From contig NZ_BCWX01000008.1 of the NCBI RefSeq assembly GCF_001894805.1, forward strand, positions 1 through 64,000: a stretch of DNA of 64,000 nucleotides, given 5' to 3'. Positions 50,647 to 55,499 of the stretch are shown in pieces. Position 1 is the first letter of the stretch, and every line of letters begins with the position of its first letter. This stretch comes from Rhodococcus globerulus NBRC 14531 (GTDB lineage: Bacteria > Actinomycetota > Actinomycetes > Mycobacteriales > Mycobacteriaceae). The notes under the pieces were generated by a model. That model had not been told where the DNA came from, did not search any database, and saw nothing but the letters and a program-made list of their open reading frames with translations. The translations under genes and the position numbers were made by a program.

Positions 50647-50970
50647 ATGGGCAAGAACGAGGACTTCGCGCACAACGACATCGCCAGTCGCAGTCGACAT
50701 GAGAAGGCGGTGGGTCTGGCCAAGTTCGCATGGAATCGTGGGATCACCGCCGCCGAACTACTCGACATGCCCGACGATCGACTGCGCAAACTCGCGCGTG
50801 CCGCCGACGCGAATCCCCCGAGCACCCGGGAGACCTGGACCATCGCAGCCGGTCTCATCGACGAGAAGGATCAGTGGGCAGCGGCGCATCCTGATCGCGC
50901 TGAGGCGCAGCGCACGCACGCCGACGAGAAGATCATGTGGGTGAAGAAGCCTATCGAGCCGTGGCTTTAG
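50647..50970 (+). CDS. small hypothetical protein
   Basis: A 107-residue soluble protein opening MGKNEDFAHNDIASRSRHEK and containing RGITAAELLDMPDDRLRKLARAAD, which reads like a small helical domain. No family recognised. A strong Shine-Dalgarno (AGGAGGTGG) precedes the ATG at 50647. The longer ORF upstream runs through the tRNA and is not real. Its 3' end overlaps the tail of the convergent acyltransferase gene by 20 nt. Confidence 0.7.
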   Translation: MGKNEDFAHNDIASRSRHEKAVGLAKFAWNRGITAAELLDMPDDRLRKLARAADANPPSTRETWTIAAGLIDEKDQWAAAHPDRAEAQRTHADEKIMWVKKPIEPWL

Positions 50971-52264
50971 TACTTCGTTCCTCGAGGCACGCCAGGACGC
51001 GGGCCGCGTTCTTCTCCAGGACAGCCGCGTAGATATCGATGTCACCGCTGTCCGGGGTTCCGCTGAGTACCGAGATCGCAAGCACGTCACCCACCGAGTA
51101 GATCCCGTGATTGAACGGGCTCCGCGGCGACACGTACGGAAATGACGTGGTCGAAACGATTCTTGAATCGCCGAGAGTCATGACGGCCGGTCCACGATTG
51201 ACGCTGCTCGCTACAGTTCCCAGTTTCGGATCCGATGACAATTCAGGTTTGACCGCAATAGCCGGAAGTTCGTATTGCAGCGCACGTACGGCCCGGTATG
51301 CGTCAGGATATTCCGCTTTGCCGTGGTTGTTGTTTGTGGTGATCGCGGCAAGTCGTTCCGCAATATCTTGTTTATCCATCGCCAGATCGACGTGATAGCA
51401 ACCCATGTGATTTTGTCCGCGCACCTCTGCCCCTACGGGGGCGCCGGACATCACCTGCATCGAGCGTGGACTCTTGTCACCAAAATGTTCTTCCAGTGAT
51501 AACGAGATGATCGTCTGGGCGATAGCCGTCACTGTCACGCCTGGCCACATTTTCTTGGCTTCTCGAATCGCCACCAGATCGAGCATGATGGCGGCAGCCG
51601 ACCGCTTGCCCGTAAAGGTCACGGCACCACCGCCGGAATCCGGTGCGTCGTATTTCCGGGTTTCCGGCAGAGCACGAAATGCGCGGACATACCGGCGCGG
51701 AGTTCCGAGGAGTCCTTTGACGGACGACCACCACGGGTTCGGCGCCGTGAGTTCCGGAATGAAGTCGGGTAAATGCTTCGACGAGAACAGGTCGTGAACA
51801 ATCGCGTTGTACACATGCCCGTCACCTAATGCATGCGAGCCCTTGAGGATCACCACCGTTGCTTCACCCTGCACCCCTGGGGCATCACGAACACCTCGAA
51901 CAACGTGCAACCGCCACAGACATTCGTAGGGATCGACGATCCGTGCGGCAATGTCGGCGAAGTATTCGAAAACACCTTTCCACGAGGATATTTCGACATT
52001 GTCTTCGACATGCTTGGTGATATCGAAGGGTGCGGAGTCGATCCAATAGGGAAACCCGAACCCGCCGGGAACTGTGGTCACGGTCCACCGCAATTGTGGG
52101 ATCCTCGACGCGCGTGCACCGAGGAACTCGAGTAGTTCCTTCTTGTCGAGCGGAGTCGAGTCACCCGAATCGAACAGGAAAATCGTCAGGACATCAGTGG
52201 AGCGGGTTTCCATATTTGCGGGAATCAATTCGAAATCCACTGAGGTCAGTTGTTTGGCAGGCAC
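50951..52264 (-). CDS. wax ester synthase/DGAT-like acyltransferase
   Basis: A 437-residue member of the WS/DGAT family, which makes wax esters or triacylglycerol from acyl-CoA. The N-terminal LTSVDFELI corresponds to the family opening L-[ST]-x-x-D. The condensation-type motif reads SHALGDG at 143-149: H144 and D148-G149 of HHxxxDG are kept, the first H is S. The C-terminal block with PVGAEVRGQNHMGCYHVDLA and the following AKPELSSDPK is shorter than in storage-lipid enzymes. I chose GTG at 52264 with GGAG 7 nt upstream. It is the last of three co-oriented genes (fadD, SIR2, this one). Confidence 0.8.
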   Translation of the reverse strand: MPAKQLTSVDFELIPANMETRSTDVLTIFLFDSGDSTPLDKKELLEFLGARASRIPQLRWTVTTVPGGFGFPYWIDSAPFDITKHVEDNVEISSWKGVFEYFADIAARIVDPYECLWRLHVVRGVRDAPGVQGEATVVILKGSHALGDGHVYNAIVHDLFSSKHLPDFIPELTAPNPWWSSVKGLLGTPRRYVRAFRALPETRKYDAPDSGGGAVTFTGKRSAAAIMLDLVAIREAKKMWPGVTVTAIAQTIISLSLEEHFGDKSPRSMQVMSGAPVGAEVRGQNHMGCYHVDLAMDKQDIAERLAAITTNNNHGKAEYPDAYRAVRALQYELPAIAVKPELSSDPKLGTVASSVNRGPAVMTLGDSRIVSTTSFPYVSPRSPFNHGIYSVGDVLAISVLSGTPDSGDIDIYAAVLEKNAARVLACLEERSTKATAR

Positions 52265-52323
52265 GACAAATCTCCGATCCAGCCTAATCGAGACAAAGCG
52301 GGCATGAAAAGGGTAAACAACCA

Positions 52324-53877
52324 CTACCCGCTTCGCGAAATGTTCGCCCGATCGTTTACACCCCGGCGACGACGCATAGGCCGCGTTTCCGCACCCAACC
52401 TGTGCAGCGTCGCTTCCAGAACTCCCCATCGTTCGCGACTTGATTCCGGCAGAGAACGAACGATCTTGGCAACTTCGCGCAAGGAATCTGCAAGTGCGAT
52501 CTCTTCACCATCGAGCAACCCGCTGTAGTTCACATCCAAGAGATACGGCGTGTCGACGGTTGTCAGAATTGCAAGGTTGTCGAGAAATATCTCGAGATCG
52601 CGAGCGGCAGCAGAGTCGTTATCTGCTTCCGACGCCGCGACATAGTCGAAGTCATTCTTCCATAATTCAGTTCGCAGATTGTCTTGGCGCAGAGTTATCA
52701 CTGTTCCGATCTTTCTCTGTCGACCGTTATGTTCGTCGAGAGCGAGCACCTCGTGAGCAAGCCTGAGCACGTTGTCATCGGTCATTGAAGCCCCGACAAC
52801 AACCAGGTGACCAGTAGCCATGAGGGACTGAACAATTGATCCCAGCGGGCGCCGCTCTGCGTCGTATCTGACGAAATCTCGTCTGCTCAGCACGATACTG
52901 TCCGGGTCTCCGCTGTCGCCATGCATCTTGAGTATCCAGGGGCGGCTTGCGGTTGCTTCCTCCCTTGGGAGCACCGCTATCGAACCTCGGCCGTGAGCAG
53001 ATTCGAAAGCTTTCTCGTAGAGCGAGTCGTAGTTGGTGGTGACCACTTTGGTCACGCCCAGTGAAGCAAGTAGGCAATGAGACAGCGTCGGCTTGGCGCC
53101 ACCCCCGGTCAACTCGACAACGCTGGCGCCCAATCCTTGAGGATGCAATGCCTTGGACAGCAGTTGTGCGCGATCCAAAACTCCGAGACCGGAGAACAAT
53201 TCGGCATCGATAGACGGAAGCGCTTCGCTTCGAATCCGGTCAAGGAGACTGTCCCACGAAGGCAATCCGGCCGGAATACTGACTCCCGCACCCAACAACA
53301 ACGAGACGTCACCGGCACGCAGTCGATCTGCTAGCTGCTGGACCTGCGGAGGTACTCCGGCGCTACACAGATGCCCACGCCGAACAGATTGGTAGGCAGC
53401 ATAATCGGCGGCATTGGCAACGACAAATGCTATATCGAAGTCGTATTTGTCGGCGCACACTGCTGCGGCGTCGATCAGTGCCTTGATTACGTGGCCGCGT
53501 ACTCCACCCTGGCCACCCAAGCCCACTCCGAACGTCGGCAACGCAACGAGCGGTTTGACTCGGCTACCGCCCGGCTGAATTCCAGTTCTGGCGATCACGT
53601 CAAGGACTTCGTAGACGCCCTCCACCAACCAGTCCACCGAAATCCGCGACGCGACATTCAACAGCCAAGCTGGACGCCCCTCCTTCGGAAAGGACCGAAC
53701 CCGACCAGCGCCGGCCGGTGCGAAGTCCAACTGTGCAGTGAGTCCAAGCACAGGCCACCAGTGCTCGCGTGGTAGGAAACTACCGCTCGTCGAGACGACA
53801 GCTGCGTCCCAGTCAACCGATTCGAGCCGTCCGCGAACAACAAACACATGCCCTGCACCTGCATCGTTCCCAGCCAC
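52324..53877 (-). CDS. SIR2-domain protein with macro-like N-terminal domain (candidate defence NADase)
   Basis: A 517-residue two-domain protein. Residues about 10-165 (VFVVRGRLESVDWDAAVVST then PTFGVGLGGQGGVRGHVIKA at 114-133) resemble a macro/ADP-ribose-binding fold. Residues about 175-440 are a SIR2_2-type domain with GAGVSIPAGLPSW (196-208), TTNYD (280-284), KMHGD (317-321) and VGASMTDDNV (361-370), the NAD-binding and catalytic motifs of anti-phage SIR2 proteins such as ThsA and Dsr. There are no zinc-finger cysteines, so a protein deacetylase is unlikely; NAD+ cleavage on infection is inferred. GTG at 53877 (GGGAG 6 nt upstream) is chosen; longer frames lie inside fadD. GC is low (about 58 of 120 bases at 52561-52680). 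Confidence 0.78.
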   Translation of the reverse strand: MAGNDAGAGHVFVVRGRLESVDWDAAVVSTSGSFLPREHWWPVLGLTAQLDFAPAGAGRVRSFPKEGRPAWLLNVASRISVDWLVEGVYEVLDVIARTGIQPGGSRVKPLVALPTFGVGLGGQGGVRGHVIKALIDAAAVCADKYDFDIAFVVANAADYAAYQSVRRGHLCSAGVPPQVQQLADRLRAGDVSLLLGAGVSIPAGLPSWDSLLDRIRSEALPSIDAELFSGLGVLDRAQLLSKALHPQGLGASVVELTGGGAKPTLSHCLLASLGVTKVVTTNYDSLYEKAFESAHGRGSIAVLPREEATASRPWILKMHGDSGDPDSIVLSRRDFVRYDAERRPLGSIVQSLMATGHLVVVGASMTDDNVLRLAHEVLALDEHNGRQRKIGTVITLRQDNLRTELWKNDFDYVAASEADNDSAAARDLEIFLDNLAILTTVDTPYLLDVNYSGLLDGEEIALADSLREVAKIVRSLPESSRERWGVLEATLHRLGAETRPMRRRRGVNDRANISRSG

Positions 53878-53930: not shown

Positions 53931-55499
53931 TTACACCCCAGCGACGGTTTCCTTGGCCCAACGGTAATCCGCTTTTCCGCTCGGTGAGCGGAGGATCGCC
54001 GGTACAAGAACGATCGAACGGGGAATCTTGTACCCCGCCACATGAATCCGGCAGTGCTCGGACAGGGCATCTGGTTCCACATCTTCGAACCCAGGCCTGA
54101 TCTGGACAACCGCAGCCACTTTCTCCCCGAACCGCGCGTCGGGTGCACCCGCCACGAGGGCGTCGAAAACCGCTGGGTGAGTCTTGAGCGCCTGTTCCAC
54201 CTCTTCGGGATACACCTTCTCTCCGCCCGAGTTGATGCACATGGAACCGCGTCCGAGCAGCACGATCGTGCCGTCCACTTCCATCGTTCCCATATCGCCC
54301 AGGACTGCCATCCGTACACCGTCGACAACGGGGAACGTCGCGGCTGATTTCTCCGGATCGTCGAAGTAGGCCAGTGGCACATGCCCCGCTCGTGCGATGT
54401 AGCCGACGGTATCCGAGCCCGGTTCGATCCGACGGAATTCCTCGTCGACCAGAATCATGTTGGGGTTGGAGCGAATTCGCTTCGTTCCGTCCTCGCCGAA
54501 TTCGACGACGCCGTCGTTACCGGATTCGGAGGCACCGAACGCATCTTTGATCACCAACCCGGGAATTCGAAACTTCAACTCTTCCTTGAGGTTCGGCGAG
54601 AACAGCGCGCCGCCGGATCCGATCAGTTTCAACGAGGAGATGTCGTACTTACCGTCGGCCGCGGCGATCGCATCGGCGATCGGACGGGCGATCGCGTCGC
54701 CGACAACAGTGATGCCGGTGATCTTCTCGGCCTCGACGAGCCTGAGCACGTCGAGGGGGTCGAAGCTCCGGGTCAGGACTCGCGGCGCTCCCATCAGAAA
54801 GGCAGTGAGCAGCGAGTAGATGGCAGCGCCATGCATGAGCGGTGGAATGAGCAGCAGCACAGTGGGATTGGTATTCGCAATCGCAGCGTCGACCACTTCT
54901 TCGAGACTACGACGCGGCGGCCCGCTGAGGTTGGCTCCGGACAGAGCAGCGAAGAAGAAGTCTTCGTGGCGCCAGACAACGCCTTTGGGCATACCCGTAG
55001 TTCCGCCGGTGTAGATGATGAAATGGTCATCGTCTGAGCGAGTCTCGAAATCCCGGACGTCGGACGCTGCGGCCAGTGCAGTTTCGTACTCGTCGCCGAC
55101 GATGAGAACGTGGTCGATCTCGGGGCACTGCGGTACAACGCCCAATGCAATCTCCGCGAATTCATCCTCGACCAGTAATGCCACCATCTTCGAGTTGGTA
55201 TAGACGTACGCAAGTTCGACGTCGGTGTAGCGGAAGTTGACGTTGATCGGAACGGCCCTGATCTTCATGCAGGCCAGTAGCGCTTCCACATATTCAACGC
55301 AGTTCCTCATGTGGATTCCGACGTGCTGCCCCGGTTTGACGCCGACGGACTGAAGGTGGTGCGCCAATCGGTTGGACCGTAGTTCGAGTTCCCGATAAGT
55401 GAGACGCCTTTCCTCGAGAATCAGCGGTGTTCGATCGGGAATCGCATCGGCAACGGCCTCGAACAGATCGGCAACGTTCAGGGTCATCGGGTTCCTCAC
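53931..55499 (-). CDS. acyl-CoA synthetase (FadD-like)
   Basis: A 522-residue AMP-binding ligase. The P-loop is IIYTGGTTGMPKGVVW, the A5 motif is KDAFGASESGNDG, and the ATP/hinge motif LLGRGSMCINSGGEKVYPEE is followed by the C-terminal lysine in SPSGKADYRW. It activates a carboxylic acid, probably a fatty or aromatic acid, to its CoA thioester. It lies 53 nt upstream of the SIR2 gene. Together with the WS/DGAT-like enzyme it could supply acyl-CoA for esterification. Confidence 0.9.
   Translation of the reverse strand: MRNPMTLNVADLFEAVADAIPDRTPLILEERRLTYRELELRSNRLAHHLQSVGVKPGQHVGIHMRNCVEYVEALLACMKIRAVPINVNFRYTDVELAYVYTNSKMVALLVEDEFAEIALGVVPQCPEIDHVLIVGDEYETALAAASDVRDFETRSDDDHFIIYTGGTTGMPKGVVWRHEDFFFAALSGANLSGPPRRSLEEVVDAAIANTNPTVLLLIPPLMHGAAIYSLLTAFLMGAPRVLTRSFDPLDVLRLVEAEKITGITVVGDAIARPIADAIAAADGKYDISSLKLIGSGGALFSPNLKEELKFRIPGLVIKDAFGASESGNDGVVEFGEDGTKRIRSNPNMILVDEEFRRIEPGSDTVGYIARAGHVPLAYFDDPEKSAATFPVVDGVRMAVLGDMGTMEVDGTIVLLGRGSMCINSGGEKVYPEEVEQALKTHPAVFDALVAGAPDARFGEKVAAVVQIRPGFEDVEPDALSEHCRIHVAGYKIPRSIVLVPAILRSPSGKADYRWAKETVAGV

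Follow-up and report, generated by a model that had tools for sequence, protein, structure and literature searches.

The SIR2 domains of defence NADases come with a variety of partners: DSR2 has a large C-terminal part made of helices, KomC works with other proteins and SIR2-pAgo with an Argonaute. ThsA of Thoeris loses NAD+ cleavage when a single asparagine is lost (N112A; PMC7272460), other ThsA effectors carry nucleotide-binding macro domains (PMC11204291), SirTM-macro pairs link the activity of a sirtuin with that of a macro domain (PMC9503650), and sets of ARG, ARPP and Nudix-regulator genes have been proposed to counter ADP-ribosylation as an anti-phage system (section 3.8 of PMC9503650). 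The initial annotation of our locus had remarked that macro is not a well-described partner of SIR2, which holds, although the legend to Extended Data Fig. 2 of PMC12700824 already lists Macro among the domains of SIR2_2 proteins. Our literature search (titles, abstract openings and the matches listed, with few subscription journals) returned no functional account of a macro-SIR2 fusion. The parts are known, and the pairing is in print as a legend label.

Here we consider such a fusion in the window, by which we mean the whole 64,000-nucleotide stretch of Rhodococcus DNA that was analysed. The gene (52324..53877, minus strand) encodes 517 residues from a GTG start with GGGAG directly upstream. 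Its dN/dS against two Rhodococcus orthologues is 0.10-0.11 (dS ~1.6, with synonymous sites near saturation), and it is therefore under purifying selection; between those two orthologues themselves, dN/dS is 0.19. At the position of this start codon, the orthologue in G004 has ACG (L003 1498-1500), compared with GTG in the window and ATG in G021. The GC content is 0.580; segments of 1554 bases taken in 100-base steps average 0.621 (SD 0.019), and 2.9% of them are as low. The remark that GC lies clearly below the surroundings is a fair one in these terms, but the downstream acyltransferase gene, at 0.567, is lower still.

The C-terminal two thirds of the protein hold a SIR2_2 NADase-type domain (52570..53355, minus strand; about residues 175-436), which is identified by Pfam, PADLOC and PDB profile matches. 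Pfam SIR2_2 (PF13289) matches with 86.3 bits (E 2.8e-24), above the gathering cut-off of 24.5 bits, and the motifs lie where they had been placed: GAGVSIPAGLPSW at residues 196-208, TTNYD at 280-284, KMHGD at 317-321 and VGASMTDDNV at 361-370. N282 of TTNYD (codon 53032..53034, minus strand) aligns with the asparagine that ThsA needs to cleave NAD+, and H319 of KMHGD (codon 52921..52923, minus strand) with the histidine changed in PDB entry KomC(H146N); both are among the thirty residues invariant in all 40 aligned proteins. Cysteines occur at just three positions (141, 171 and 268), too few for a four-cysteine zinc ribbon, which agrees with the initial annotation and sets the protein apart from the canonical zinc sirtuins. 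PADLOC gives ThsA as its best match (E 2e-25), and this match covers residues 179-382 only. When an 18-row family profile was compared with the PDB, 17 distinct sequences matched at E <= 1e-5, those of DSR2, KomC and SIR2-pAgo type over the SIR2 part only. Fourteen matches with E from 3.4e-35 to 1.7e-24 comprise ThsA, DSR2, KomC, DSR2-length SIR2-like proteins, 7uxt (labelled USG protein, which we take to be a ThsA) and 9v0g/9v12 (labelled NAD-dependent protein deacetylase); for example, 7uxt matches at 3.4e-35, ThsA 6lhx at 5.5e-33, KomC 8zsf at 8.6e-28 and DSR2 8wyb at 5e-26, with the asparagine and the histidine aligned. A Sir2 superfamily protein in three entries (8in8, 8jkz and 8jl0; presumably SIR2-pAgo) matches at E 1.3e-8. 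Scores of 35.2 bits for Dsr2 and 17.3 bits for Dsr1, against an NCBIfam cut-off of 1400 bits, place the protein outside DSR1/DSR2. The Pfam and PDB matches to SIR2_2, ThsA, DSR2 and KomC, together with the missing zinc ribbon, bear out the description of this domain as one of the defence-NADase type, and homology along with the invariant N282 and H319 suggests that it hydrolyses NAD+. A conserved C-terminal tail with an LLDxxY motif (52393..52569, minus strand; about residues 437-495) is seen in the alignment; the Pfam scan gave no match there.

What, then, is the N-terminal domain (53368..53853, minus strand; residues 9-170)? In a PDB search with a 19-row profile of this domain, macroH2A1.1 matched at E 1.1e-6, followed by another four constructs of macroH2A (0.0015-0.01); the 18 sequences found up to E 10 include nine macro domains, among them PARP14 twice, PARP15 and TTHA0132 (in our understanding a macro domain), and nine non-macro proteins, the best of these at E 0.048. 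A profile of 16 canonical macro domains, drawn from related genomes, was then compared with the profile of this domain; 147 columns aligned, between columns 4 and 161 of 167, at E 1.5e-4, 51% probability and 16% identity, whereas none of the 19 controls (17 unrelated families, together with the SIR2 half and the profile in reverse) exceeded 1% probability. As single sequences, none of 19 members matched Pfam Macro, and the N-terminal scans gave chance-level matches only. Because of the PDB profile matches and the profile-profile alignment with its clean controls, we regard the domain as macro by descent, at a profile probability of only 51%. It is also an atypical macro domain, divergent where the ligand is usually bound. 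The aspartate of a GD motif and an NAAN motif have roles in ADP-ribose binders. In the window protein the GD aspartate is R17; across the clades of the tree described below, this position is R in all three Rhodococcus proteins and S or T in all six of clade B, whereas all 17 clade A proteins and 8 of 14 others retain the aspartate. The NAAN position holds PTD, PTG, STD, STS or similar; a glycine-rich loop is largely kept, but not the GGG loop of canonical macro domains. Residues H10, F12, D24, G122, G128, D148, V152 and R166 are invariant in the macro part. Given the R in Rhodococcus and the S/T in clade B, the ligand may not be ADP-ribose, and binding cannot be assumed. Of the initial proposal of an ADP-ribose-binding macro fold, the macro type stands by profile, and the assignment to ADP-ribose is qualified by R17.

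The macro-SIR2 fusion recurs in Actinobacteria and in one Acidobacteria MAG. Matches over the whole length of the protein, or nearly so, at E below 1e-60 are present in 12 of 201 related genomes, our own included; across the phylum, 7 of 396 sampled genomes, again including our own, carry the fusion (one as two matches in one frame) and 16 have any match at E <= 1e-10. The N-terminal domain is found in 40 of 298 genomes of the order, and the named relatives include Williamsia, Cellulomonas, Nocardioides and one Acidobacteriaceae MAG. SIR2 is also present in 93 of 96 ORFs bearing the N-terminal domain, a count in which the examined loci overlap and genes are counted repeatedly; of the other three, two are fragments in separate frames close to one contig end and the third is the copy in G010, which is split by a frameshift in its macro part. 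In a tree made by a quick method with SH-aLRT support only, the window protein groups with clade B, L072 and the Williamsia, Kitasatospora, Cellulomonas and Acidobacteria rows (99), with clade A apart (100); several long branches make the deeper joins unsure. The row named Kitasatospora (L026) comes from a record that has 61% GC at this locus and neighbour families common to the Williamsia loci, possibly a case of contamination or gene transfer. The Nocardioides copy (L027 near 11114) has its frame broken in the SIR2 part and adjoins PglW- and PglX-like genes. Searches of mobile elements gave four matches in 50,697 phage records and 33 in 72,556 plasmid records, none over 80% of the protein, and those listed fall between residues 167 and 411; in viral contigs, with 16 loci, no match reaches below query residue 139.

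Within Rhodococcus, the gene is optional. It lies 53 nt from an upstream gene for an AMP-binding enzyme of the acyl-CoA synthetase type (53931..55499, minus strand) and is followed by a gene for a WS/DGAT-like acyltransferase (50951..52429 as the ORF is listed, minus strand), the probable start of which, by comparison with G021, is GTG 52264. The fusion gene is present in four of 28 genomes of the genus (two further matches are SIR2 only), one of the four copies being the frameshifted one of G010, and all four carriers have the same flanks, with the fusion gene between synthetase and acyltransferase. The flank matches of G003 are 108 bp apart with no fusion gene between them, as opposed to 1685 in the window; G017, G009 and G014 lack both the fusion gene and the acyltransferase at the locus and have 435-581 bp instead. 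All told, the eight Rhodococcus genomes examined show three arrangements of the slot between the acyl-CoA synthetase and the nearby tRNA-Pro region. From this patchy presence, the empty site in G003 and the differing arrangements, the slot is a variable one and the fusion gene optional, and since G003 has the same locus minus just this gene, its description as a single-gene unit is supported. The surroundings in the window are ordinary: Pfam assigned a family to nine of ten neighbours scanned, all ordinary genes, and the acyltransferase, the one window neighbour put to PADLOC, had no match there.

Several relatives, in clade B and among the scattered copies, have defence genes as neighbours (Druantia, Pgl/BREX and type IV restriction). 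Nine of 14 large neighbours, from the loci of nine relatives, match a PADLOC family at E < 1e-40 (TmtA, HmaA, PDC-S37 twice, DruE, PglW, PglX, type IV restriction and MkoA); the other five comprise three weaker PADLOC matches and two without a match at the cut-off used. In G746, a DruE gene lies about 28 bp upstream of the fusion by our own gene calls. The same search on ten neighbours at clade A loci gave none at E < 1e-40 and one weak match (3.6e-15), a contrast that is biased because the 14 were chosen for size and the ten controls are mostly smaller. Additionally, a Nudix-NrtR gene lies near all six clade B copies (L068, L070, L139, L140, L145 and L147), with ARPP-1 near five, a NERD-helicase near five and an ADP-ribosylglycohydrolase-phosphatase near three, and parts of this set of genes are also found near L075 and L076. 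The published ARG-centred search (PMC9503650) targeted sets without coupled sirtuins, so the clade B linkage to macro-SIR2 may extend the ARG-centred set.

These observations lead us to lean towards a self-contained, nucleotide-gated, NAD+-depleting defence effector made of one protein, a reading that we judge somewhat more probable than not. In this mechanism, the SIR2_2 domain would hydrolyse NAD+, and the macro-type domain would act as its gate through a bound nucleotide that phage infection produces or alters, most likely an ADP-ribose-related molecule; activation would deplete NAD+ and phage growth would be stopped by abortive infection.

The strongest reason for doubt about a defence role is clade A. 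All 17 examined genomes with the fusion at one conserved locus, from five genera of family f16, fall into this single clade, and its neighbours are DUF1206, thiolase, SDR, P450-like and helicase genes (as seen in one representative each). In 10 of 16 clade A loci (L069, L071, L130-L138, L141-L144 and L146), the next gene downstream is P450-like and has the same orientation as the fusion. With both locus types counted, the fusion is present in 67 of 112 f16 genomes (63 of 96 of good quality) and in 25 of the 26 genomes of genus g63, which is unlike a typical mobile defence gene; has a defence become fixed in this clade, or does the clade do something else? The candidate anti-phage role put forward initially gains indirect support from the nine PADLOC matches among the 14 large neighbours of relatives and is weakened by this near-universal presence at an ordinary locus; that no phage or plasmid record matches over 80% of the protein also counts against it. 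One could argue that the protein is instead a housekeeping or stress regulator of NAD+ and ADP-ribose, domesticated in some lineages, as both clade A and the NrtR-type Nudix, ARPP-1 and ADP-ribosylglycohydrolase genes near clade B would suggest. We consider this unlikely, if the most serious of the alternatives, for in Rhodococcus the gene is patchy, one site being empty and one copy frameshifted, and the NAD/ADP-ribose set near clade B is itself a predicted conflict system (PMC9503650 section 3.8).

Another alternative is that the protein is a ThsA-like Thoeris effector that needs a TIR protein elsewhere for its signal. ThsA is the best PADLOC match and is among the best PDB matches, other ThsA effectors have nucleotide-binding macro domains (PMC11204291), and the carriers G172, G196 and G582 have TIR genes elsewhere in their genomes. 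However, the window genome has no TIR_2 match at E <= 0.001, no TIR genes were found in the carriers G064 and G135, and none of 42 neighbourhoods contains a TIR by a model that detects strong TIR_2 matches (its half-version recovered 11 of 11 held-out TIRs) and by which divergent TIRs could be missed; there was likewise no TIR-domain ThsB gene near the fusion in the window genome or these neighbourhoods, which also held no canonical macro gene. Furthermore, the protein gave no Pfam match to STALD (SLOG), and its likeness to ThsA extends over residues 179-382 rather than the full length. The lack of a TIR in the window genome and the 42 neighbourhoods makes the Thoeris reading improbable. We also give little credence to a SirTM-like enzyme that would ADP-ribosylate proteins and use a macro domain of its own to take the modification off again: although SirTM-macro pairs couple sirtuin and macro activities (PMC9503650), the SIR2 similarity here is to NADases, SirTM is described as a subfamily separate from SIR2_2 (PMC12700824 section 7), and the NAAN motif and canonical GGG loop are not kept. 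A sirtuin deacylase regulating the adjacent acyl-CoA synthetase, which the gene order in four Rhodococcus genomes and the CobB regulation of an acyl-CoA synthetase (PMC7272460) might bring to mind, is very improbable for a SIR2_2 protein without zinc cysteines whose relatives sit in unrelated contexts, and we dropped it because G003 has both flanks without the SIR2 gene.

Returning to the one-protein effector, a more specific version, which we offer tentatively and regard as doubtful, is that the divergent macro domain senses an NAD+ or ADP-ribose metabolite altered by phage and switches on the SIR2 NADase without a TIR signal maker, and that in one lineage the gene has become fixed, as a permanent part of immunity passed on vertically, in a genus and its neighbours. 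The Rhodococcus presence/absence pair and the clade at a conserved locus would allow direct genetic tests of an NADase defence becoming a standing part of the genome.

How does the fusion compare with the systems already described? It resembles the SIR2-SLOG form of ThsA in its SIR2_2 NADase domain with the same asparagine and histidine and in having a possible nucleotide sensor as its second domain, but here the second domain is N-terminal and of macro type, with neither a SLOG match nor a detectable TIR partner. It shares a macro-type domain within the effector protein with the TM-macro form of ThsA, which differs in having a transmembrane-helix effector and TIR proteins, where the fusion has a SIR2 effector. 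A SIR2 defence NADase domain is also common to DSR2, KomC and SIR2-pAgo; these have other partners, and the matches cover the SIR2 part only. Genes of the kinds that make up ARG-centred systems (PMC9503650) lie near clade B copies and are absent among the window genes scanned. The Macro-labelled SIR2_2 proteins of PMC12700824 (Extended Data Fig. 2) have apparently the same domain pair, going by the legend label. If the one-protein reading is true, macro sensing and SIR2 killing, which are split between two Thoeris classes, can also work in one polypeptide without TIR.
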